DNA of 13,503 bases from Candidatus Aenigmatarchaeota archaeon (GTDB lineage Archaea; Aenigmatarchaeota; Aenigmatarchaeia; QMZP01; QMZT01), in NCBI GenBank assembly GCA_030634615.1, contig DAOWAL010000021.1, forward strand, positions 1 through 13,503, in the 5' to 3' direction. Of the stretch, positions 3,162 to 13,363 are shown in pieces (the first letter of the stretch is position 1; each line of letters opens with the position of its first letter). A program made the translations under genes and the position numbers. Below the pieces are notes generated by a model. The model searched no databases. It was not told the origin of the DNA and was given only the letters and a program-made list of their open reading frames with translations.

Positions 3162-3644
3162 TTACTTCTTGGCGTTCTTGGAATTTTTTATATCACGTAT
3201 TAACTGTTTAATTATTTCTAGGTCTCTTTGCATGTCTTCAATTTCCAGCTCTGCTTTTTTGTCTACCCTGTAATTTTGTTCAGCTCTAAGACGATCCCTT
3301 TCCGTTTGTCTGTTCTGGCTCATTAAAATTATTGGGGCCTGTATAGCAGCAAGACATGAAAGTACTAAATTGAATAGAATAAATGGATAAGGATCCCACC
3401 GGAGATTAACCATGTGAATATTTATCGCTATCCACACGGCCATAAAAAAGAAAAATATTATAAGGAATGTCCAGCTACCAAACCACCTTGTTACCCAGTC
3501 AGATGCTTTCTGACCAAATGTCCTCTGTCTGGGTGATCTCATTATTGTATCAAGAACTTTTTTTTTCTGATCTTCAGTGACTACTTTTTTCTTTATTTCG
3601 TTTTTTGTCAGAAGTTTCTTCTGAGGTTTGACTGGTTTATCCAT
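3162..3644 (-). CDS. DUF1003 family membrane protein
   Basis: 160 residues. A basic N-terminal segment (about 1-45) is followed by two membrane spans, about 57-77 (WTFLIIFFFFMAVWIAINI) and about 86-108. The second carries the family signature DPYPFILFNLVLSCLAAIQAP, continuing into the conserved SQNRQTERDR and a charged helical C-terminus (KKAELEIEDMQRDLE). Pattern and length fit DUF1003 (Pfam PF06210), an inner-membrane family of unknown function in bacteria and archaea. No SD precedes the ATG, but a TATA box lies 25 nt upstream, so the mRNA is probably leaderless. It lies 37 nt downstream of the 87-aa gene on the same strand with no clear terminator between, so read-through from the surface-protein transcript is possible. 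Its stop codon directly abuts that of the PIN-ATPase-KH gene (TAATTA at 3159-3164). Confidence 0.9.
   Translation of the reverse strand: MDKPVKPQKKLLTKNEIKKKVVTEDQKKKVLDTIMRSPRQRTFGQKASDWVTRWFGSWTFLIIFFFFMAVWIAINIHMVNLRWDPYPFILFNLVLSCLAAIQAPIILMSQNRQTERDRLRAEQNYRVDKKAELEIEDMQRDLEIIKQLIRDIKNSKNAKK
3184..3189 (+). terminator. Possible T-run terminator for the PIN-ATPase-KH gene
   Basis: A six-T run begins 22 nt after the stop codon at 3161, inside the 3' end of the convergent DUF1003 gene. Archaeal transcription often ends at U-tracts without a hairpin, so this is a reasonable but weak candidate. On the opposite strand an equivalent run (A6 at 3111-3116) lies about 46 nt past the DUF1003 stop. 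Confidence 0.3.
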
Positions 3645-3665
3645 AATAATAATTAGAGCGTTTCC

Positions 3666-3673
3666 TATAAATT
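3666..3673 (-). promoter_or_regulatory. TATA box for the DUF1003 gene
   Basis: On the minus strand AATTTATA is centred about 25 nt before the ATG at 3644. That spacing places the transcription start at or next to the start codon, consistent with a leaderless mRNA. The sequence from 3645 to 3660 has no SD-like motif. Confidence 0.5.
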
Positions 3674-3681
3674 AGCTCCTG

Positions 3682-3945
3682 CTAAAGTAGGTTTTCCATT
3701 TCTTCAAGATCATCTGAAATCCCGCTTATATCATTTCCAAGATCGGAAAGTGTGTCTGCTGCTTGATCTGGTGTATTGATAACAACAGCCCCTGGAGATA
3801 TCAAACCGCTGTAACTTCCGTAAATAAAAACACCAACGACACCTACTAGTACAATGACCACAAAAGCAAGGGCATACAATTTCTTTGAACTCGTACTACT
3901 TTTTCCATCCTTCTTGTTCATTTCTTCATAAAGGCTTCTAGCCAT
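3682..3945 (-). CDS. Small single-pass membrane protein (87 aa)
   Basis: I do not recognise a family. The protein has a polar, Lys-rich N-terminus (1-22, with KK at 11-12 and 21-22), one strongly hydrophobic span at about 23-43 (LYALAFVVIVLVGVVGVFIYG), a short linker, and an acidic C-terminal segment at about 58-87 (PDQAADTLSDLGNDISGI, then SDDLEEMENLL) with heptad-like spacing of Leu/Ile. The positive-inside rule puts the N-terminus in the cytoplasm and the acidic helix outside. The ATG at 3945 follows an unusually strong SD (AGGAGGGG), only 17 nt after the stop of the giant secreted protein, so the two are almost certainly cotranscribed. Inference: it may anchor or assist the giant protein, whose own C-terminus is coiled-coil-like and lacks a membrane span. 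Confidence 0.8.
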   Translation of the reverse strand: MARSLYEEMNKKDGKSSTSSKKLYALAFVVIVLVGVVGVFIYGSYSGLISPGAVVINTPDQAADTLSDLGNDISGISDDLEEMENLL

Positions 3946-3950
3946 CTAAT

Positions 3951-3958
3951 CCCCTCCT
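3951..3958 (-). promoter_or_regulatory. Strong ribosome binding site of the 87-aa gene
   Basis: The minus strand reads AGGAGGGGATTAG before the ATG at 3945. This is the longest match to the archaeal anti-SD seen in the window, with one mismatch to GGAGGTGAT. It lies in the 17-nt gap after the giant gene, so the small protein can be initiated on its own from a shared mRNA, possibly at a higher rate than the leaderless giant protein. Confidence 0.75.
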
Positions 3959-3962
3959 AATT

Positions 3963-6900
3963 TCAGGAAACCATAATTTCAAGTATGGATTTCATGAAAT
4001 CCCTCAATATCTTTATACTATTCTTAATTTCAATTCTTACCTCTTCCAAATTTTCTAAATTGTTTCTTATTTTTGAAATGGTGTTGTCGACAATTTCTTT
4101 GACTTCACTGAACATTTTAGCAGCTTTGTTGAATTTATTACTCCTTTCTATATCATCGATAGAGTAATAATATTCAGACAGTGCATTCGCTTTTCTTTCA
4201 AGTATGTCCATTTTTGCACGTATGCCTTCTAGTTTCATTACCATTTCAAGTATATCTTCTCTTTCGATTTCCTTTATGCAGCATACTTCAGATCTTGTCT
4301 GGCAACCAAATCCTGATATTTCAAATCCATCTTTGCATGGTGACTGGAAGTAGATACAGTGTCCATCCATTTCTTCACATTCAGTCCCAGTGGCTTTTAT
4401 GTCACTTGGATATTTGTCAAGATACGCTTCTATAAGCTTTGTTGGTTCTCCTGATATACATCTATAATGAATTTCACAACCATAATTTGTGCATTCACCT
4501 TTAAACTCTTCTCTATGTTCATCTTCACTACAGCCACATTTAGAATCAGTAGAATCTCCTCCACAATAAGGTAATGGTTCTGCAACAGGTATATCTGCTG
4601 CAATCATACCCGTGAACATATCTGAATCCAGAGGAATTTCTTCATTTGATTCTAAAACTACACCTTCGGAATGTACTATCTCCACTGGTGGCGCAACTAT
4701 TGATTTTGTGTAATCAACTACAGCTGACAGGGCAGTTGTTGTGATGTAAGGTTCGTATCCAATTATACCTATCAGGAATGTTTTATGTGTCCAGAAGTAT
4801 ACGCTTTGACCATAGTTACTCATTACGTATATGTACTCTCCGTTTATTTTCTTTTCATTTGGCGAACTATATATGAAAATATCTGCCAGCATTTTTTCTA
4901 ACTGTTCTCTTGTTTCAAAATTGTAAACAATTGTAGTATACGGCTTTCTATATTTTTCATAAATTGCCATATAACCTGCGACGTTGCTTGGTCCGGGGAA
5001 AAACGTAGATTCCTTGTAAATGTAATTTTGTATGTTCTCTAGTATGAGATATTTACCAAGAACATCTTGATCATAAACCTTGAAAAAACCAGTACCAGTA
5101 TTCCAACTGTAGCTATATTCTCCCACAGCCTTTGCTCCAGTGTAGATACCGGTGTATCTGCACCTACTTTTGGTTTCACATGGTGGGCAGTAATAACCTG
5201 TTCTGCATGAACAAGTTTCTCCCATATTACACGACACACTCAATGTAATTGTTTCAGTGTCACCGTAAGGGTTTTTAACAGAAACCTCTAGCTGCTTATC
5301 CTCAAGCTGGTCTATATCAAAATAATTGCTTTCTATTTTAACAACTTCCCCTATACTGTATGCATTTTTGTTGGTGTGTAGATACATGTGTGTATATGAA
5401 GGAACACATCTGTAGTATGTGCACGTTTCCTGTTCTATGCAATCAAATTCTGCATATTCATTAATACCGTCTATGGTAGTGTAAGCATAACCACCGCAAC
5501 TACTTTTCCATGTTATTTTTTGCCTCTCTGTTCCATAAACATCAGTCACACAAGTTCCTATTCCGCTGCAACTAAACTTTCCTCCATCGGAATCAGCAGA
5601 GTAGCATTTTTCCACAGAATTTGACCCTCTGAAAACACACTTTACTTGTTCTTTGGAATTTTCTATACAATCTTCAGGACAATAGTATTCAGAAGATTCA
5701 AGCCTTTCATACCAACCGCAGATATAGTCACCACAATTTAAATTGCAGCTTAAATCGTCATCATTTTCATCTATCATTCCATCACAGTCGTCATCCACAC
5801 CATTGAAACATGTCACTTCCGGGGTTGGGTTCATTACTCCCTCAATACTTCCACAATCAGAATCTATTCCTGCATGGCATCCATCTCCGTCAGTGTCCTG
5901 AAATTCACCGTTTATTAACTCTATGCCACAATCTTCAGTTTCTGAAAATATACACGCGCCATCAACACAACCGTTTGGGCAAACATACATTTCGGCTGCA
6001 TGCATGGTGTTCAAACAATACTGTTCTTCCAAAGTATTACTTTCAGAGACACACTGCCTATCTGTTGTTCCATCTTTGATACAACAATCATCTATTATAA
6101 CCCAACTTGTCCAATCCGCGGTTCCGCTTAATGTCCCTTTAATATAATAATTCCTTCCGCCATCATAATCAGTGCATTCTAACTTTCTTACTGGTCCTGT
6201 TAAAGTTCCTGTATCTATGTGATCATATCCACCTGAGTTGTACAATATTGTTATATCAAGTGTATAGCTTGTTTCAGTTTTCAATACCTCTTCGCCCCAG
6301 TTTAGATTATAGTCAATGCTGGGACAATGTTCCTCTATGACCGCTGATCCACCTGGACCAATTTCCATGTAAGTCCCTTCCCCATTACACCCAATGGTAT
6401 TGAAAGTGATTGTATCATATCCGTAGAGCTTCGCTTCAATCGACTTTATCTTAACTTGTGTTGCGATTTTACTGTTCCAAAGTTTCAGATGTAAAGTACC
6501 ATCAGACCTTAATTCCCAATCAGAAGGTGCTCCGAGGCCTGTAAACCCTGTAGCTGTTTTTCCTGTGTATGTTACTGCTGTTGTCATACCTGATATAGAG
6601 ATTGCTGTGCTACCGCCACTGCCACCCCCGCCGGATGATGGTAATTCCGGAACAACACCGCACGGTGCCTCGAATTTTTCTTTGACATAACCATCTTTGC
6701 AAACACAACTTGGATCCGATGAATATTGACCACAATAATTAACTTGCTTACAATCAGCTGGGCAATTTTCTTCGTTTTCCGGAACCGGGCACCCTTCAGC
6801 CATGCATACTATATCATCACATATACCATTTCCACAACTTGGGGTACAATCTCTTTGGCATTTGACATGACAATAAGTTATACAATAAGTTGGTGATTCT

Positions 6901-9572
6901 GGGACTGATGAGATAACTGATGTTGTTGATACCATAGCTCCGCTTACAGCGATGCCAGTATTAGATGAAGTTGTTTTCATTTCATACGCTTCTTCTTCAA
7001 CAGCGCACACTGTATCACATATGAGCTCTTTTTCTGTACTACTGCAAAAACCATCTCCACATTCATCATCAAACACAATATTTATGGTTTCTTTGTCGGA
7101 TATGTACGCACATTCCTCCTGATTTACAGAAACTATGAATGTCCATTCTCCTTCGATTTCAGGTTGATGTGGGACTGTTGTAGAATATTTATAGATACCG
7201 TTGGAATCGGTGTAATATTTTACTGAACCGCTATTGGTTAAGTCATCTCTTTCTGCATAATAATTAAACATTTGATAAGGCATCAAGTTTCCATATTCAT
7301 CAAAAATTGTTACTTTATATTCCACATAATCTCCAGAATAGTAAGTATTTTTGTTGAAGTCCAGATTAATTCTTGTTGGACAATTTATTTTTTTACAATC
7401 TTGTGAACAACTACTCCAACTTTCCCCTAATTCGCATTTTCCGTTTCCGCAGACTATATTATTTTCAATACATGCTCCGTCTGAGCATTCATTTGGGCAC
7501 TCATATCTGCAACCACCAAGTCCTGAATGACCACATCCATCTTGGGTTGGAATACCGTTATTCCACCCGCAATCTATCTCATATAGGTATTTTCCATCTT
7601 GGCAATAATCACTATAGCATTTTTCTCCGGAGCAAGCCTTTCCATATTCATAATAATTCCTTCCGCCGTCAGAATCTGTACATGTTTGATTGGATGCATA
7701 TTGTATACAGGCCCCATATTCGCAGCCATTTGGACAATCATAAGTATGTACACCTAGATCTTCTATACATGTTCCCTCTTGCAGTGTTACTGGCGTCACA
7801 CACTCGTCTGTCCAGTAGCCGGTATATTGCGGAGGAGGGTTCGTTGTAGTTCCTTTTTCATAATAATCTCTACCGCCGTCAGAATCTGTACATGTTTGAT
7901 TGGATGCATATTGTATACATGCTCCTTCCATGCACCCATTAGGGCACACATATCCTTCGTGGAAATACTGGTTTGGATTTTCTTCGTACCCAGGAGGGCA
8001 AAAATTCTCAACAAGATAACAATTATCTCCTGAACAGCGTTGTACTGCTTTTCCGGCGTCATAAATTATATGACCACCTGCAAATTGTGGATTCAGAGAA
8101 CATATATCTGGATATTCAAGTCCATTGTAAAATTTGGATCCCTTCGTGTAATAGTCTTTTCCATTATCAGTGTCTGTACATTTTCCTTTGGTTGTACATA
8201 TTCCATTTTCTTCATAACACGATTCGCATCTTATGTTGCTGCTTGGTGTCGATTCACCATCTCCTATCATAGGGGAGCACCAGCTTAATTCTTCGTAATT
8301 ATCGCAATTGTAATTGCATGTATATCCTGACATGCAATCCTCTGACCCTTCTGATTTGTCACAGTAATGACCTGCGTATCCAGGATCACATGTTCCCAAT
8401 CCTAATGCAGGCCCTTCTGTAGCGGCGCTCTGTGTGCAATAAGGGGCATTTGAAGGACAGTCAGCTTCTGTTTTACAGCAACCATTTGGCCATTCACATT
8501 CTAAATCATCGCTAATATAAACTTCAGCGTAACTTACAAAAAGCGAGTCACTCACTTTGTAGATATAGTCTTTATACAATCTTGTGCTTGCTAATACCTT
8601 TTCGCCGTTGAAACTGTTTGTCATGGGTATGGAAAACAATAACTCTGCTTGATCATAGTAATAACTTCCCTCTACATCGTACATTTTTTTTGTGCATTGT
8701 ATCCATCCGCCATAAACGCTTGCGGTTGTTTTAAAATAATCATATGTTGAACAATAGAATTCGAAAAGATCTTGATCCTCTCCTGGTATAAAATATTGTT
8801 GGTTATTTGGGTAATGTTGTATATTTGCTTTTACTATAAACATTTCTCCATTGTTTGCGTAATCCCGCATTTTTTCGATATCACCATATTCAAGTATTCC
8901 AGGAGCATTTGGATTAGATGTACTACCGGAATGTCTTATTTGCAAAACTTTTGTCCATTTCCCTGTTTGAACACATGCTCCATCTTTACACCCATTTGAA
9001 CATTTGATGTTGTATCCTTCACCTATGCATTCTCCCTTTGCTTCGTTTATGAAATATTCGTCCAAATAACAGTTCTCAGTATGACATTCACTAACTGGTT
9101 GCCATGAACATGTTGATACACAATATCCATTTTCTACTTCACCACTTTGTAAAAGCATGCAACTGTCTTTCATTTCATCTAGATAAGTATGTCCAAAGTT
9201 TGCAATTGTAACTCCTTTCGTGAAATAATTTTTACCACCATCGGAATCTGTGCATGGTTCCGATTCGCAGAATTCCGTTGGTGTAGCTCCTGAAATTATA
9301 TCATAAACAAGTTGCGCATCTCCTGGTGTTACCTCACCGTTTTTGTTGGTGTCAATGCAGCAAATGTTTTCCGGTAATACAGATACTCCGAGATAAACAT
9401 TCATTATAGCTTCAGCGTCAGCTTCTGTTATTTGGCCATCACCATTTGCGTCCCCTATTATAGAGTTTGAATGGCATGTGACTACGCTAGGGGCAGAAAC
9501 AGTTGGAACCAAGAAAGAAAGGCACACGAAAATAGAAAATAAAATAACCGGAAAAAACGCAAACTTATTCAT
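3963..9572 (-). CDS. Giant secreted Cys-rich modular protein with dockerin-like domain
   Basis: 1869 residues, probably exported and cell-surface or extracellular. In order: signal peptide (1-27, hydrophobic core then TVSA); dockerin-like pair of Ca-binding loops (41-52 with D41, N43, D45, D52; 74-85 with D74, N76, N78, D85); Cys-rich modules opening with CTDSDGG..YY.KG and closing with CPNGC.DGACI; a beta-type stretch (about 204-357); and Ig-like segments (about 734-835 and 1395-1505). Four CGNG.C...C..DC-type motifs start at 708, 838, 913 and 1280. A Gly/Ser linker lies at 979-988, and a MopE-like CFNGVDDDCDGMIDE at 1255-1269. A Tyr-rich domain (about 1515-1625) precedes a last Cys-rich part (1670-1765) and a charged helical, coiled-coil-like tail (1768-1869). 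By hand I count about 125 Cys. There is no C-terminal membrane span. A TATA box 28 nt upstream and no SD suggest a leaderless mRNA. Function unknown; adhesion or surface-layer work is inference. Confidence 0.93.
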   Translation of the reverse strand: MNKFAFFPVILFSIFVCLSFLVPTVSAPSVVTCHSNSIIGDANGDGQITEADAEAIMNVYLGVSVLPENICCIDTNKNGEVTPGDAQLVYDIISGATPTEFCESEPCTDSDGGKNYFTKGVTIANFGHTYLDEMKDSCMLLQSGEVENGYCVSTCSWQPVSECHTENCYLDEYFINEAKGECIGEGYNIKCSNGCKDGACVQTGKWTKVLQIRHSGSTSNPNAPGILEYGDIEKMRDYANNGEMFIVKANIQHYPNNQQYFIPGEDQDLFEFYCSTYDYFKTTASVYGGWIQCTKKMYDVEGSYYYDQAELLFSIPMTNSFNGEKVLASTRLYKDYIYKVSDSLFVSYAEVYISDDLECEWPNGCCKTEADCPSNAPYCTQSAATEGPALGLGTCDPGYAGHYCDKSEGSEDCMSGYTCNYNCDNYEELSWCSPMIGDGESTPSSNIRCESCYEENGICTTKGKCTDTDNGKDYYTKGSKFYNGLEYPDICSLNPQFAGGHIIYDAGKAVQRCSGDNCYLVENFCPPGYEENPNQYFHEGYVCPNGCMEGACIQYASNQTCTDSDGGRDYYEKGTTTNPPPQYTGYWTDECVTPVTLQEGTCIEDLGVHTYDCPNGCEYGACIQYASNQTCTDSDGGRNYYEYGKACSGEKCYSDYCQDGKYLYEIDCGWNNGIPTQDGCGHSGLGGCRYECPNECSDGACIENNIVCGNGKCELGESWSSCSQDCKKINCPTRINLDFNKNTYYSGDYVEYKVTIFDEYGNLMPYQMFNYYAERDDLTNSGSVKYYTDSNGIYKYSTTVPHQPEIEGEWTFIVSVNQEECAYISDKETINIVFDDECGDGFCSSTEKELICDTVCAVEEEAYEMKTTSSNTGIAVSGAMVSTTSVISSVPESPTYCITYCHVKCQRDCTPSCGNGICDDIVCMAEGCPVPENEENCPADCKQVNYCGQYSSDPSCVCKDGYVKEKFEAPCGVVPELPSSGGGGSGGSTAISISGMTTAVTYTGKTATGFTGLGAPSDWELRSDGTLHLKLWNSKIATQVKIKSIEAKLYGYDTITFNTIGCNGEGTYMEIGPGGSAVIEEHCPSIDYNLNWGEEVLKTETSYTLDITILYNSGGYDHIDTGTLTGPVRKLECTDYDGGRNYYIKGTLSGTADWTSWVIIDDCCIKDGTTDRQCVSESNTLEEQYCLNTMHAAEMYVCPNGCVDGACIFSETEDCGIELINGEFQDTDGDGCHAGIDSDCGSIEGVMNPTPEVTCFNGVDDDCDGMIDENDDDLSCNLNCGDYICGWYERLESSEYYCPEDCIENSKEQVKCVFRGSNSVEKCYSADSDGGKFSCSGIGTCVTDVYGTERQKITWKSSCGGYAYTTIDGINEYAEFDCIEQETCTYYRCVPSYTHMYLHTNKNAYSIGEVVKIESNYFDIDQLEDKQLEVSVKNPYGDTETITLSVSCNMGETCSCRTGYYCPPCETKSRCRYTGIYTGAKAVGEYSYSWNTGTGFFKVYDQDVLGKYLILENIQNYIYKESTFFPGPSNVAGYMAIYEKYRKPYTTIVYNFETREQLEKMLADIFIYSSPNEKKINGEYIYVMSNYGQSVYFWTHKTFLIGIIGYEPYITTTALSAVVDYTKSIVAPPVEIVHSEGVVLESNEEIPLDSDMFTGMIAADIPVAEPLPYCGGDSTDSKCGCSEDEHREEFKGECTNYGCEIHYRCISGEPTKLIEAYLDKYPSDIKATGTECEEMDGHCIYFQSPCKDGFEISGFGCQTRSEVCCIKEIEREDILEMVMKLEGIRAKMDILERKANALSEYYYSIDDIERSNKFNKAAKMFSEVKEIVDNTISKIRNNLENLEEVRIEIKNSIKILRDFMKSILEIMVS
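7663..7709. repeat. 47-bp perfect direct repeat, copy 1
   Basis: Identical over 47 bases to 7873-7919. It encodes residues 622-637 of the giant protein, the join between modules 3 and 4 (GACIQYASNQTCTDSDGG region, including an N-Q-T sequon). The 210-bp spacing equals exactly 70 codons, so loss or gain of one unit stays in frame. Confidence 0.9.
7873..7919. repeat. 47-bp perfect direct repeat, copy 2
   Basis: Partner of the repeat at 7663-7709. It encodes residues 552-567, the join between modules 2 and 3. Identity at the nucleotide level, including third codon positions, argues for a recent duplication or gene conversion rather than selection on the protein alone. Confidence 0.9.
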
Positions 9573-9595
9573 GGTTTATAATTTGTCGAAATTTA

Positions 9596-9604
9596 TTATA
9601 TAAG
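9596..9604 (-). promoter_or_regulatory. TATA box for the giant surface protein gene
   Basis: The minus strand reads CTTATATAA, centred about 28 nt before the ATG at 9572. The bases before the ATG (TTATAAACC) show no SD. This points to a leaderless transcript starting at or next to the ATG. A T5 run at 9622-9626 (minus strand), just past the SRP54 stop and upstream of this box, could end SRP54 transcription, making the surface genes a separate unit. Confidence 0.55.
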
Positions 9605-9621
9605 TATTGATTTGTTTCGGT

Positions 9622-9626
9622 AAAAA
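9622..9626 (-). terminator. Possible T-run terminator after SRP54
   Basis: The minus strand has TTTTT starting 5 nt past the SRP54 stop codon (9632-9634), upstream of the TATA box of the next gene. A U-tract alone can be enough in archaea. There is no hairpin. Weak evidence. Confidence 0.3.
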
Positions 9627-9631
9627 CCAAA

Positions 9632-10966
9632 TTACATGCCCATTCCGAACTGTTTTGCAATTTTCGCTAATGGTCCTCTTTTGAATGCTTTTCCGCCACC
9701 TGTCATTTTCATCATTTTTTTCACTTGTTTATAATTTTTTATAAGGTCTCTAATATCTGATTGTTGTGTGCCAGCTCCCTTTGCAATCCTCTGTATTCTG
9801 GATTGCTTGATTAGATCCGGGTCTTCCCTTTCAGCTGGTGTCATGGAATCTATTACAAACTTCCATTTCTTCATCTTCCCTTCTTGTACATTCATAAAGT
9901 CTTTTGGCATCTTTTTTGTCATTGCTCCACCGGAAAATCCAGGTATCATACCCATTACGTTTGATAGTGAGCCCATTTTCTGAAGTGAACCGATTTGATC
10001 GTAGAATTCATTGAGCGTAAATTTACCTTCCATTATTCTCTTTGCAGACTCTTCCGCTCCGGATTCCTTTGCTTTTTCAAGCAACCCTTCAATATCACCA
10101 TATCCGATAAGCCTTGATACGAATCTTTTTGGGTCATATTCTTCAAAATTATCAAGTTTTTCACCAACACCTATCATTTTTACTTTTGAACCGGATACAG
10201 CGGCAGCAGCAAGAGCCCCGCCACCTTTTGCGGTTCCGTCAACTTTTGTGACAATAATGCCGGTTATACCAACTAATTTGTTGAATTCCTCGGCCTGCTT
10301 TCTTGCGGCCTGACCAATATCAGCCGGTATTACAAGGAATGTCTGATCTGGTTTTATTATCTTTCCCAGATTCTTCAGTTCTTTGGCAAGTTCCCCGTCT
10401 AGTGCGTCCCTACCTGCAGAGTCGAAAATCATTACACTTTCTTTTCCTTTCTTAAGTGCATTTTTTGCAATGTCTTCAGCTTTCTTACCATCGAAATAAA
10501 CAGGTACATCAATTTGTTTTCCTATCTGTTTTAATTGCTCTTTAGCTGCTGCTCTGTGTACGTCGCATGCAACAAGACCAACCGAAAGACCTCTTTTTTT
10601 GAACCATCTTCCAAGTTTACCGGATGTTGTTGTTTTACCTGAACCAAAAAGACCTATTAGAAGTATTTTTTGGTTACCTAAAGCGAGTTTACCTTTCTCT
10701 TTACCAAGAAGTTCAATAAACTCGTCGTAAAGTATCTTAAGGAAATATTCCTTAAGTGTCATACCTTTTGGGTGTTCTTCGTTGAGTATTTTATCTTTAA
10801 TGCTCTTTGACATCTCAAAAACAAGCTTGATATCTACATCTGACTGAATTAGCGTTCTTTGCAGGTCACGGACAATGGATTCGACAGCTTCCTTGTCTAC
10901 AACTCCCATTCCCATGACTCTTTTAAACACGCCTTTTATGCCTGTTCCGAGTTTGTCTAATGCCAT
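9632..10966 (-). CDS. srp54: Signal recognition particle protein SRP54 (GTPase)
   Basis: Binds signal sequences and 7S RNA, and delivers ribosomes to the membrane with the receptor FtsY. Numbered from the ATG at 10966 (444 aa): four-helix N domain, 1 to about 85; P-loop GLFGSGKT at 105-112; G2 DVHRAAAKEQL from 135; G3 DSAGR at 182-186; G4 TKVDG from 240; G5 region around 266 (GVGEKLDNFEEYDPKRF). The Met-rich M domain follows, with the SRP RNA-binding stretch SRIQRIAKGAGT at about 389-400 and C-terminus GMGM. A GTG at 10975 extends the frame by three codons. I reject it because its bases (GTGAT, 10971-10975) look like the SD, 4 nt before the ATG, and because MALDKLG is the usual start. Export of the neighbouring surface protein may depend on this pathway, but adjacency alone does not show it. 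Confidence 0.96.
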   Translation of the reverse strand: MALDKLGTGIKGVFKRVMGMGVVDKEAVESIVRDLQRTLIQSDVDIKLVFEMSKSIKDKILNEEHPKGMTLKEYFLKILYDEFIELLGKEKGKLALGNQKILLIGLFGSGKTTTSGKLGRWFKKRGLSVGLVACDVHRAAAKEQLKQIGKQIDVPVYFDGKKAEDIAKNALKKGKESVMIFDSAGRDALDGELAKELKNLGKIIKPDQTFLVIPADIGQAARKQAEEFNKLVGITGIIVTKVDGTAKGGGALAAAAVSGSKVKMIGVGEKLDNFEEYDPKRFVSRLIGYGDIEGLLEKAKESGAEESAKRIMEGKFTLNEFYDQIGSLQKMGSLSNVMGMIPGFSGGAMTKKMPKDFMNVQEGKMKKWKFVIDSMTPAEREDPDLIKQSRIQRIAKGAGTQQSDIRDLIKNYKQVKKMMKMTGGGKAFKRGPLAKIAKQFGMGM

Positions 10967-10970
10967 AATA

Positions 10971-11015
10971 ATCACTTGGATTAACTTAGATTATAAATTC
11001 TTAGTTATATATAAA
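10971..11015 (-). promoter_or_regulatory. SRP54 promoter and SD
   Basis: On the minus strand TTTATATATAA (11005-11015) is a good archaeal TATA box. A start about 26 nt downstream, near 10984, gives a leader of about 18 nt containing GTGAT at 10971-10975, 4 nt before the ATG. A second AT-rich box (GAATTTATAAT, about 10990-11000) lies closer to the gene and is a weaker alternative. Confidence 0.55.
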
Positions 11016-11023
11016 TAAACCTT

Positions 11024-11033
11024 TTTGCGCAAA
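11024..11033. promoter_or_regulatory. 10-bp palindrome TTTGCGCAAA upstream of the SRP54 TATA box
   Basis: A perfect palindrome lies about 9 bp upstream of the SRP54 TATA box, next to where TFB would bind. Its GCGC core stands out in an AT-rich spacer. It may be an operator for a dimeric regulator, but a single copy cannot prove this. Confidence 0.3.
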
Positions 11034-11040
11034 GTAGGCA

Positions 11041-11093
11041 CACAAAAACGTTTACGAAAAGCACGCTATCGCTTTTTACGTGAAATATTTGTG
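11041..11093. other. Interrupted inverted repeat in the divergent spacer
   Basis: Nested arms: CACAAA (11041-11046) with TTTGTG (11088-11093), ACGT (11048-11051) with ACGT (11078-11081), and AAAAGC (11057-11062) with GCTTTT (11071-11076) around an 8-nt loop. The bulges make a stable RNA fold uncertain. The rest of the 10967-11163 spacer holds only the two divergent promoters, and I see no gene in it. Confidence 0.3.
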
Positions 11094-11133
11094 ATTTTAC
11101 TACACTTTTCAGCAATTTTAATGACAATAGGGT

Positions 11134-11142
11134 ATTTTAAAG
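11134..11142 (+). promoter_or_regulatory. TATA box for the 72-aa gene
   Basis: ATTTTAAAG is centred about 26 nt before the ATG at 11164, and there is no SD in the intervening bases. This is the same leaderless arrangement seen for two other genes in the window, and it supports the plus-strand 72-aa frame over the overlapping minus-strand frame. Confidence 0.4.
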
Positions 11143-11163
11143 TAAAATGCGATATTTGATAAA

Positions 11164-11382
11164 ATGAAGTATTTAACTCCAGTAAAAAACTTCCTTCGAA
11201 GAGGATATATAATAAACGGAGAGGATAGTATAATCCAGATTCATAAAGAAGGAATTTTCTCAAACAAGGAACTACCAATTAAACCGCGGAATTTTAATTG
11301 GGTGCTTCGTAGGAAAATAAACAATTACGCGAAAAAAAATGACGTTGATGAAGTCGTATTTGTCATTGGCGTGAAAAAATGA
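11164..11382 (+). CDS. Hypothetical small basic protein (72 aa)
   Basis: I do not recognise it. The sequence is Lys/Arg/Asn-rich with no membrane span, no signal peptide and no Cys. The N-terminal half looks beta-like (GYIINGEDSIIQIHKEGIF). A basic segment (about 39-58, with RRKINNYAKK) precedes a C-terminal strand-like DEVVFVIGVKK. Size and charge would fit a nucleic-acid-binding protein or a small regulator, but nothing specific supports that. Support for the frame: a TATA box at leaderless distance, and a balanced charged composition unlike the Leu/Tyr/Phe-rich opposite-strand frame. It is divergent from SRP54 and upstream of the 334-aa hypothetical, with which it is probably not cotranscribed because that gene has its own TATA box. 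Confidence 0.6.
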   Translation: MKYLTPVKNFLRRGYIINGEDSIIQIHKEGIFSNKELPIKPRNFNWVLRRKINNYAKKNDVDEVVFVIGVKK

Positions 11383-11462
11383 AAGAAAAAATAGAGAAAA
11401 AAATGTCCAAAAATCCAAAATGGAACGAAATGTGTAGCGTATATGATTTCGGCTTTATTTGA
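11379..11462 (+). CDS. Possible 27-aa ORF overlapping the 72-aa gene (ATGA)
   Basis: The start codon overlaps the 72-aa stop as ATGA, a classic arrangement for coupled translation. The frame reads MKEKIEKKMSKNPKWNEM and ends ...YDFGFI at a TGA (11460-11462). GGCGTGA lies a few bases upstream. At 27 codons this could well be chance. It could also be a real small protein, or the remnant of a longer C-terminal part. There is no family resemblance. Confidence 0.22.
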   Translation: MKEKIEKKMSKNPKWNEMCSVYDFGFI

Positions 11463-11516
11463 GTACTTTTTATCATAAAATTACCAAAACACGCACACAC
11501 TACGATCAATAGAAAC

Positions 11517-11591
11517 CTTTATAAACCCCTGATTTAACTATATTACATAATATGTTTACTATTAATAAGTAACAACTAAATTAGGGGTGAT
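11517..11591 (+). promoter_or_regulatory. Promoter, leader and SD of the 334-aa gene
   Basis: CTTTATAAAC at 11517-11526, with GAAAC just upstream as a possible BRE, is the best TATA box in the window. A start near 11548 gives a leader of about 49 nt, longer than the others here. GGGGTGAT (11584-11591) is the SD, 5 nt before the second of two tandem ATGs. The leader contains a small inverted repeat, TTACT (11556-11560) with AGTAA (11568-11572). The bases 11463-11516 show nothing else. Confidence 0.65.
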
Positions 11592-11596
11592 TCATG

Positions 11597-12601
11597 ATGA
11601 AATATGGCGGTAAAGGATACAAAGCTGTAGATACATTGCAACGAATGGGAGATTCTGCCAGAAGCGTTTTTGGTGGAAGATACAAGTTCGTTGATGATGG
11701 TGAAGGTAATGTTTATGTTGTTAAAAAGAAAGTTGGATCTAAATTAGATTACGCTCTTGAAGAAAAAGATTTTTCTGGTAAATTCTTCGGTACAGATAAT
11801 AAAAGATTACTTAGAAAAACAGATAAATTTTTGAGAAAAAGAATCAAAAAAGCAAAAAAAGGAAAATGTGAAGTACCTCAGAGATTATCTTTCTATGTTG
11901 GTAATTCAAATCAGTTGAAATACAATCACGAAGCTAGTCAAGATGCTGCCAATAATCTTTTTATTAGAAAAAAATATGATCAAGTAGCTGGTACAGAAAA
12001 AATTAAAGATGTTAAAGAAAGAAATAGAAAATTTAAAAATATTGGAAGAGACGTTGCCGTAGGGTCTGCAATAGGCGGTGGTTTTTTGAAAGCTGTTGAA
12101 GGGATGATAAAAATTGCCGATAATGTGACCAGTGATGAAATGCTATACAAAGCTTTAAGTGGAACACTTGGTGACGCTGCTCTTAAAGTTGTGCTTCCTG
12201 CATCGACTGTGGCAATGGCTGCGGGTATTGGTATGGATGCTAACATTGAAACTTACAGGGGGCTAAGAAAAAACATGAAAAAAAATAATATTGGAATAGA
12301 TTTTACTGAGAAAACACCTAACTCTGAAAATTTCAGTGCGTCTATAATAAAAATTAATGATGGTGATAATGTTCGATACATAGCTCATCCTCACGGAGTT
12401 GGCGAAAAACCTTCTATTGATAATATAAACAAAATGTCATCCATAGATTCGAGAACAGGTGTGAAGACGATAACACCAGCTTATACAGAGAAAGTTTTTA
12501 GAACTTACACTACGAGTACACGTGATGAATTAAGTGGAATGGTTAATAGAAAACTCGATAGTCTCGAAAAAAGTGGTAAATCAGTTGTAAGTTCTGTCTA
12601 A
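11597..12601 (+). CDS. Hypothetical protein with basic N-half and two hydrophobic segments (334 aa)
   Basis: I do not recognise a family. Two ATGs occur in tandem (11594, 11597). I choose the second because the SD GGTGAT ends 5 nt before it, the spacing used elsewhere here. Features: N-terminal GGKGYKAVDTLQRMGDSARS; a strongly basic stretch at 69-90 (KRLLRKTDKFLRKRIKKAKK); a Gly-rich hydrophobic segment at about 152-174 with a GxxxG pair (G156, G160); a second Ala-rich hydrophobic segment at about 191-213; and a polar C-terminal third with YIAHPHGVGEKP at 261-272. There is one Cys and no signal peptide. The paired small-residue helices could insert in or lie on a membrane. A viral or plasmid origin is possible but unproven. 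It converges on aIF2-alpha with a 3-nt gap. Confidence 0.82.
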   Translation: MKYGGKGYKAVDTLQRMGDSARSVFGGRYKFVDDGEGNVYVVKKKVGSKLDYALEEKDFSGKFFGTDNKRLLRKTDKFLRKRIKKAKKGKCEVPQRLSFYVGNSNQLKYNHEASQDAANNLFIRKKYDQVAGTEKIKDVKERNRKFKNIGRDVAVGSAIGGGFLKAVEGMIKIADNVTSDEMLYKALSGTLGDAALKVVLPASTVAMAAGIGMDANIETYRGLRKNMKKNNIGIDFTEKTPNSENFSASIIKINDGDNVRYIAHPHGVGEKPSIDNINKMSSIDSRTGVKTITPAYTEKVFRTYTTSTRDELSGMVNRKLDSLEKSGKSVVSSV

Positions 12602-12613
12602 AAATCACTTTTT
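12600..12613. terminator. Short bidirectional A5/T5 terminator between convergent genes
   Basis: AAAAA (12600-12604) and TTTTT (12609-12613) flank TCAC. Each strand therefore has a T5 run at or just after its gene's stop: on plus, 7 nt past the 334-aa stop; on minus, directly after the aIF2-alpha TGA. Symmetric U-tracts like this can end both transcripts in archaea. The stem is too short and AT-only to act as a strong hairpin. Confidence 0.4.
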
Positions 12614-13363
12614 GCTTTCGATTTTAAAACTAGCCTCGCCGTGCTTTTCAAAGTCTTTGGTGATTTTTTCGCCAACGGTTCTTACTTTATTTTCAACTTC
12701 TTTGTAGTTTTTACCGCTGGCTTCAATTATGTATTTTGGAGCAGAAACATACTGGACACTGAGTCCTTCATCTTCGGCTTTCTTTAGTGCCTTTTTGATA
12801 AGCTCAACACCTTCCGGTTCGTGTGTTATCAGTTTTAACAGTCCTTTCACAATGAATGTCTTTTCAGCAAAGTTTTTGTTTGCAATTTCAGTGATTGCTT
12901 TTACCCATTCATCTGTAAGACCTTTCTTTGCAAGTAGATCTGGTGTCTTTAATGACAACTCAAACATCTTTGTAAGAGTACCGAATTCCTCTATTAAAAG
13001 ATCCCATATTTCTTTTTTGGTCTGTGTTAGATCTTTTCCAATGCTTTTCCCGGCCATTTCAAGAAGCTTTTCAGCTCTTCTCTCACGCTTGAATTCATTT
13101 AGTTTTCGTGCAGTATCTTCTCTATGTACTCGTTTTAATGAGAGTGAAACATTCCCTGGTTCTGATCTCATTACTCTGCATACTATGTACTGTTTTTCTT
13201 TGACAAATTCACGTATGTCTCTTACCCATCTAGAAGCAACTTCAGAAACGTGTATAAGACCGGTTGTCTCGTATTCTAGAATGTATACTATGACAGAATG
13301 TGGATTTATTTTGCTAACCCTGCAAACAACAAGTTTGTTTCTTTCAGGTAGCCTTTGACCCAT
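12605..13363 (-). CDS. eif2a: Translation initiation factor aIF2 subunit alpha
   Basis: Alpha subunit of the heterotrimeric aIF2, which brings Met-tRNAi to the small ribosomal subunit. Its 252 residues are slightly short for the family. An N-terminal S1 (OB) domain spans about 8-85 with the conserved LIHVSEVASRWVRDIREFVK and the closing strand VSLSLKRV. A helical middle domain spans about 88-170 (KLNEFKRERRAEKLLEMAGK). The C-terminal alpha/beta domain that contacts the gamma subunit spans about 171-252 (VQYVSAPKYIIEASGKNYKEVE). The strand facing the S1 ligand side (HSVIVYILEYETTG) departs from the common GAYV.L.EY pattern but keeps EY. The SD GGAGG (13371-13375) lies inside the end of S27e, 7 nt before the ATG, and only 2 nt separate the two genes, so translation is probably coupled. 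Confidence 0.95.
   Translation of the reverse strand: MGQRLPERNKLVVCRVSKINPHSVIVYILEYETTGLIHVSEVASRWVRDIREFVKEKQYIVCRVMRSEPGNVSLSLKRVHREDTARKLNEFKRERRAEKLLEMAGKSIGKDLTQTKKEIWDLLIEEFGTLTKMFELSLKTPDLLAKKGLTDEWVKAITEIANKNFAEKTFIVKGLLKLITHEPEGVELIKKALKKAEDEGLSVQYVSAPKYIIEASGKNYKEVENKVRTVGEKITKDFEKHGEASFKIESKK

Follow-up and report, generated by a model that had tools for sequence, protein, structure and literature searches.

Analysis of the window, the whole stretch of 13,503 nucleotides, indicated that it encodes a giant exported protein (3963..9572; this and all further window features of the giant and its partner lie on the minus strand) which is probably the displayed half of a two-gene module. 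The protein would be captured non-covalently, through its C-terminal helical tail, by a membrane-tethered helix encoded in the next gene, the binding having been modelled. The window corresponds to contig C132 of an archaeal genome of 1.10 Mb, 83% complete, whose source is a member of the Aenigmatarchaeota, a DPANN group. An earlier interpretation made from the letters of the window (the sequence-only reading) had likewise attributed the protein to a small archaeon. The open reading frame (ORF) begins with ATG and encodes 1869 residues, of which 125 are cysteines, the number that had been estimated before. Searches covered 156 genomes of the window's class and, in a wider set, 392 archaeal relatives. 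The retention of large surface proteins by very small symbiotic archaea, and their contact with hosts, are mostly unknown, and the giant and its partner seem to point to an undescribed mode of surface protein retention in such cells.

The informative feature of the giant is its helical tail (residues 1767-1869, 3966..4274), a proposed three-helix acceptor for the partner helix. The sequence-only reading had recorded the tail and passed over it. A profile built from 17 tail copies (A1) recognised it in the giant with E = 9.7e-34 and in relatives as a conserved domain, giving 56 matches in 41 of the 156 class genomes, with one to three copies in each tail-bearing genome. In the wider search the tail was found in 46 of the 392 relatives, five of these 46 lying outside the class. 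When named genomes were scanned with the tail together with the domain that succeeds it in the majority of carriers, 23 loci were returned: 21 from Candidatus Aenigmatarchaeota, one from archaeon GW2011_AR5 and one from 'archaeon isolate PL23a_bin.127'. Judged from the sequences of its carriers, the tail is a mobile domain borne by very different exported proteins. Many are cysteine-rich, one is a subtilase with FG-GAP repeats (G036), and another is a 2532-residue laminin-G/PEGA/NHL protein (G085).

Examination of all 62 tail carriers showed a hydrophobic N-terminus in 48, and several of the remaining 14 were cut by the end of a contig. No clear membrane segment beyond the N-terminal signal was found in any of them by a hydrophobicity scan. 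Segments flagged at residues 81 and 84 of two carriers were read as signals behind starts called too early, because the proteins of close relatives start directly with the signal and are shorter. The tail lies within 20 residues of the protein end in 16/62 carriers, and many other tails are succeeded by a further conserved domain. At loci L043 and L044, the tail is followed by a cysteine-bearing domain (consensus CGxDGxCFDRAFRVC...) and by a C-terminal CxGCLxNGxCDxxECxxCxDC motif, both of which recur in many carriers and neither of which carries a family name here.

The next gene, which the sequence-only reading had missed, lies 17 bp downstream of the giant (3682..3945) and encodes an 87-residue protein with one transmembrane segment and a C-terminal amphipathic helix (residues 58-87, 3685..3774; aligned with 31 other partners), a proposed membrane tether. 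Genes of this partner family also stand beside other tail genes. Within the class, a partner was placed close downstream on the same strand of 47 of 56 tail genes by script, with one further case (L129) added by eye; outside the class, 6/6 tail genes had one. For five of the 62 tail genes, the contig ends less than 300 bp downstream (L052, L125, L136, L144 and L149). Among the 57 with at least 300 bp, 54 have a partner (53 by script). The three without one (L040 3635-9220, L118 and L145, in genomes G036, G009 and G076) are from genomes in which a different tail gene does have its partner. As a control, the same size, distance and hydrophobicity rule was applied to other ORFs of at least 200 residues from the same loci, and a small neighbour was found for 5 of 167. 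These data show that tail and partner genes are linked.

The linkage was further examined with a partner profile. When each locus was left out in turn, the adjacent ORF was recovered in 47/47 class cases and was the best match in 46. Against the 156 genomes the profile gave 44 matches at E <= 2e-8, 43 of them adjoining a tail gene; the remaining one (G144) lies where a contig begins, after a truncated gene whose end resembles tail genes. The recovery of known partners is by construction, whereas the scarcity of any others is not, and 5 class partners out of 48 either fall short of this threshold or escape the profile. Departures from the usual layout were also seen. Genus g80 has N-terminal tails, and one of four such genes has a partner, positioned upstream. 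At L245 2490-4627 (G117:C7) the layout is reversed, with the partner gene first and a tail-like helical domain at the N-terminus, after the signal peptide. In G036, two adjoining genes at L040, one for the subtilase/FG-GAP giant (3635-9220) and one for a dockerin protein (9498-12812), both bear tails and have one partner gene between them; judging from this arrangement, a single anchor gene possibly serves two displayed proteins.

Partners are short, with lengths of 59-106 residues and a median of 70 when the longest start is taken (n = 54). Their N-termini carry a lipobox in 28/54 cases (27 by pattern, plus L133 by eye) and a transmembrane segment in 26/54. In an alignment of 32 members, the last 30 residues or so follow the pattern I-x-S-x-x-E-A-x-x-x-V-x-x-I-S-x-D-V-x-D-I-S-x-x-L-x-D-I-D-x-x-L-G, which varies considerably, and hydrophobic residues are spaced at 3-4 positions. 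In AlphaFold models of two relatives, built as tail-partner fusions, the partner helix was placed as a fourth helix beside the three helices of the tail; the window's own pair is outside those models. Known families offered little help. At most four of the 17 tail members matched any single Pfam family (Fib_alpha, best 20.7 bits, cut-off 29.9) and at most two matched any NCBIfam family. No more than one of 32 partners matched any family in Pfam, and the window's partner, the sole one scanned against NCBIfam, gave nothing over cut-off. Identification of the tail as Fib_alpha, BLOC1_2, CesA or others was rejected, these being weak helical matches. A match of both tail (E = 0.0028) and partner (E = 1.4e-5) to the PDB profile of 8a3k, a designed antiparallel four-helix coiled coil, was attributed to heptad composition and not to kinship. 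Titles and abstract openings in the open-access literature yielded no description of the tail or the partner.

A two-part surface anchor is the simplest reading of a secreted, anchorless protein that is co-encoded with a membrane-tethered linker and helix. Under this scheme, the giant would be exported through its signal peptide and, lacking a predicted membrane anchor of its own, would end in a three-helix bundle such as that modelled in relatives. The next gene would supply a small membrane protein, with one predicted transmembrane helix here and a lipobox lipoprotein in about half of the relatives, whose sole extracellular part would be a linker and one amphipathic helix. Packing of that helix as the fourth of the bundle, as in the two models, would hold the giant on the cell surface without a covalent bond. 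The displayed part appears to be modular: here it would comprise a dockerin, disulphide-rich modules, an immunoglobulin (Ig)-like segment and a pilin head, and in relatives a subtilisin-like protease or a laminin-G protein. The giant's own modules may most plausibly serve in docking or adhesion, which is much less certain than the tethering. A toxin-immunity pair, also made of a large gene and a small downstream gene, was set aside because conservation is seen here in the tail and the small gene, and variation in the displayed part.

A broader proposition, which we hold to be evenly balanced, is that tail and partner form a general sortase-free display system of DPANN archaea, in which any exported protein that gains a tail, whether a dockerin giant, a protease, a lectin-like protein or a Cys-rich one, is shown, sometimes several per anchor gene, and in which the giant's dockerin and pilin head could link it to pili or to another cell. 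A two-gene anchor recognisable from sequence would make it possible to list, all at once, which proteins many uncultured archaea display on their surfaces. The tail (about 105 residues) and the partner helix (about 30) also make a small binding pair that is measurable without culturing the organism.

The principle itself is known. In passages of PMC5744192, SlaA of the Sulfolobales is secreted and is retained by another protein, SlaB, which is anchored in the membrane. The likeness would lie in the non-covalent retention of an extracellular protein by a membrane-anchored one, a complex that here was modelled in two fusions. SlaB is a large stalk with beta-sandwich domains, a coiled coil and a C-terminal transmembrane segment, whereas the partner has 59-106 residues, an N-terminal transmembrane segment or lipobox, and one helix; the proteins displayed here are also diverse, the two systems being compared by description. 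Since the SlaA/SlaB principle is established, and tail and partner have neither a consistent family nor a description that we found, the pair would seem to be a new form of a known anchoring principle. Archaeosortase and PGF-CTERM lipid anchoring, as outlined in the same partial source (PMC5744192), also uses a C-terminal signal to retain exported archaeal proteins on the surface, but tail proteins have no C-terminal transmembrane segment and their anchor would be a separate gene product. Cohesin-dockerin surface docking, for which sections of PMC9012536 include archaeal versions, resembles the present case in being modular and non-covalent, with a dockerin on the giant; here, in contrast, the conserved coupling is a helical tail with a co-encoded helix.

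Docking through the dockerin had been the main point of the sequence-only reading, and the module itself proved real. Residues 40-89 (9306..9455) scored 26.1 bits (E = 1e-5) against Dockerin_1 (PF00404), for which the curated threshold is 22.9, and 32.3 bits in the genome-wide search. Type I dockerins contain two 12-residue calcium loops with D or N at positions 1, 3, 5 and 12, and the giant's loops, DANGDGQITEAD at residues 41-52 and DTNKNGEVTPGD at 74-85, satisfy this rule. The relative G036, from the same order as the window organism, has a dockerin-first protein of 1104 residues in a different gene neighbourhood, whose dockerin shares 61% identity with that of the giant across 62 residues. 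Over cut-off, dockerins occurred in 25/156 class genomes and cohesins in 13/156, and 11 of the 13 cohesin genomes also had a dockerin (Fisher p = 1e-8, uncorrected for kinship). Cohesin-dockerin pairs therefore exist in the class, and a missed or foreign cohesin is possible for the giant. It is thus conceivable, if doubtful, that the dockerin is the working part and the tail pair secondary, the giant docking to a cohesin borne by its own cell, by an assembly or by a partner cell. Against this, the genome search that the sequence-only reading had proposed gave no cohesin over cut-off in the 83%-complete own genome, nor was one found in G036. Two sub-threshold matches in the own genome (C57 and C118) were rejected by eye; their ORFs presumably belong with COG1361-like and DUF2207-like proteins, which we take them to resemble. 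The giant's dockerin is the single one detected in its genome by profile search. Its orthologs in G003 (1101 residues) and G007 (1688 residues) gave no dockerin match, and the parts conserved among the three lie elsewhere (706-971 and 1369-1869). As far as the data go, the dockerin is an orphan. A surface role, as first proposed, remains likely; dockerin-based docking as the main point was not supported. In G007, two adjoining cohesin ORFs were observed (C4, L248 3232-5057, minus strand), one of them bearing a MopE motif as well as a weak dockerin; this genome bears cohesins although its giant ortholog has no dockerin.

Three further explanations concern what the partner and the displayed modules do. 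The partner could be an export chaperone or assembly factor for tail proteins, and no lasting anchor. A short protein that is almost always co-encoded and that binds a helical domain in models would suit that role, and the linkage and the models fit it equally well. We nevertheless consider it unlikely: the 54 partners have a predicted membrane tether, provided in two different ways, and their length leaves no room for a further domain; nor is another anchor seen in the tail proteins. Quite improbable, in turn, is that the giant works as an adhesin associated with a pilus, or as a part resembling a minor pilin, its pilin head co-assembling with the type IV pilus. That idea draws on a feature that had been missed, a type IV pilin head domain at residues 991-1129 (6186..6602), 51-53% identical to a pilin of the same genome (51% over 142 residues). 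The latter protein (L246 4371-4871) starts with MKRKGQSAMEYLM, has the N-terminus MKRKGQSAMEYLMTYGWAILIVIIV and lies behind two T2SSF/TadC genes; it has no match to a Pfam pilin family and was called a pilin because of its N-terminus and T2SSF neighbours. A second protein of the genome with CTDSDGG-type modules carries DUF2341, which parts of Makarova et al. 2016 (PMC4858521) tie to PilY-type adhesins. The giant, however, has a Sec-type N-terminus by eye, with no class III signal or pilin N-terminal helix, and its head domain is internal and unmatched in the G003 and G007 orthologs. A head that is close to the own pilin, inserted in the giant and unmatched in both orthologs indicates, by sequence comparison, domain capture, the pilin's N-terminal helix having been left behind; archaeal type IV pilins share the head and differ in all else noted here. 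Least expected of all is that the giant and similar proteins form the S-layer or cell wall. They are large, exported and often disulphide-rich, in few copies per tail-bearing class genome, and extracts of PMC5744192 describe a two-part anchored layer in Sulfolobales. The displayed parts differ widely among relatives (subtilase, laminin-G), however, and the tail profile matched nothing in 115 of the 156 class genomes.

The remaining features of the giant were mapped along its length. The N-terminal signal peptide (residues ~1-27, 9492..9572) was supported by a hydrophobic N-terminus with a best mean of 2.68 over 19 residues, the cleavage site being placed by eye, in agreement with the export first proposed. 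Five CTDSDGG/CPNGC modules had been described, and all were located by motif position: CTDSDGG...CSNGC at residues 107-195 (8988..9254), CTDTDNG...CPNGC at 465-547 (7932..8180), CTDSDGG...CPNGC at 561-617 (7722..7892), CTDSDGG...CPNEC at 631-696 (7485..7682) and CTDYDGG...CPNGC at 1133-1202 (5967..6176), with the closing motifs beginning at 191, 543, 613, 692 and 1198. For the four CGNG motifs claimed, the strict form C-G-[ND]-G-x-C accounted for three (708, 838 and 913); the fourth is not strict and was presumably the looser CGDYIC. The MopE-like sequence CFNGVDDDCDGMIDE (residues 1255-1269, 5766..5810) was found by motif search as CFNGVDDDCDG at residue 1255, with no MopE family match in the Pfam scan of the giant. 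The Ig-like segments came down to a weak MG2 similarity at residues 741-816 (Pfam, 13 bits against a cut-off of 32.8).

This MG2/Ig-like segment and the CGNG motifs fall in a conserved block (residues 706-971, 6660..7457) with 55% identity to the G003 ortholog and 50% to that of G007; the blocks 706-971 and 1369-1869 together are shared with both at ~47-55% identity. A core domain without a Pfam family (residues ~1385-1762, 4287..5420) is 48, 46 and 24% identical to its counterparts in G003, G007 and G036 and was matched in 7/156 class genomes. The G007 ortholog (L039 3559-8625) carries BP74_N (PF23621, 141.5 bits) at residues 1002-1117, which was unmatched in the Pfam scan of the window's giant; by this comparison, displayed modules appear to vary even between close relatives.

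The genes surrounding the giant in the window encode HisRS, a PINA-like ATPase, a DUF1003 protein, SRP54 and aIF2-alpha. The order SRP54, giant, small transmembrane protein, then PINA-like ATPase and HisRS further along, is common to the window, G003 and G007, with a different gene in G007 where the window has DUF1003. A search of the own genome for disulphide machinery gave no match for VKOR and identified a DsbA-like Thioredoxin_4 protein. The second protein with CTDSDGG-like modules is a predicted lipoprotein of 694 residues (C25, L004 532-2616, minus strand), in which DUF2341 scored 25.6 bits against a cut-off of 23.4.
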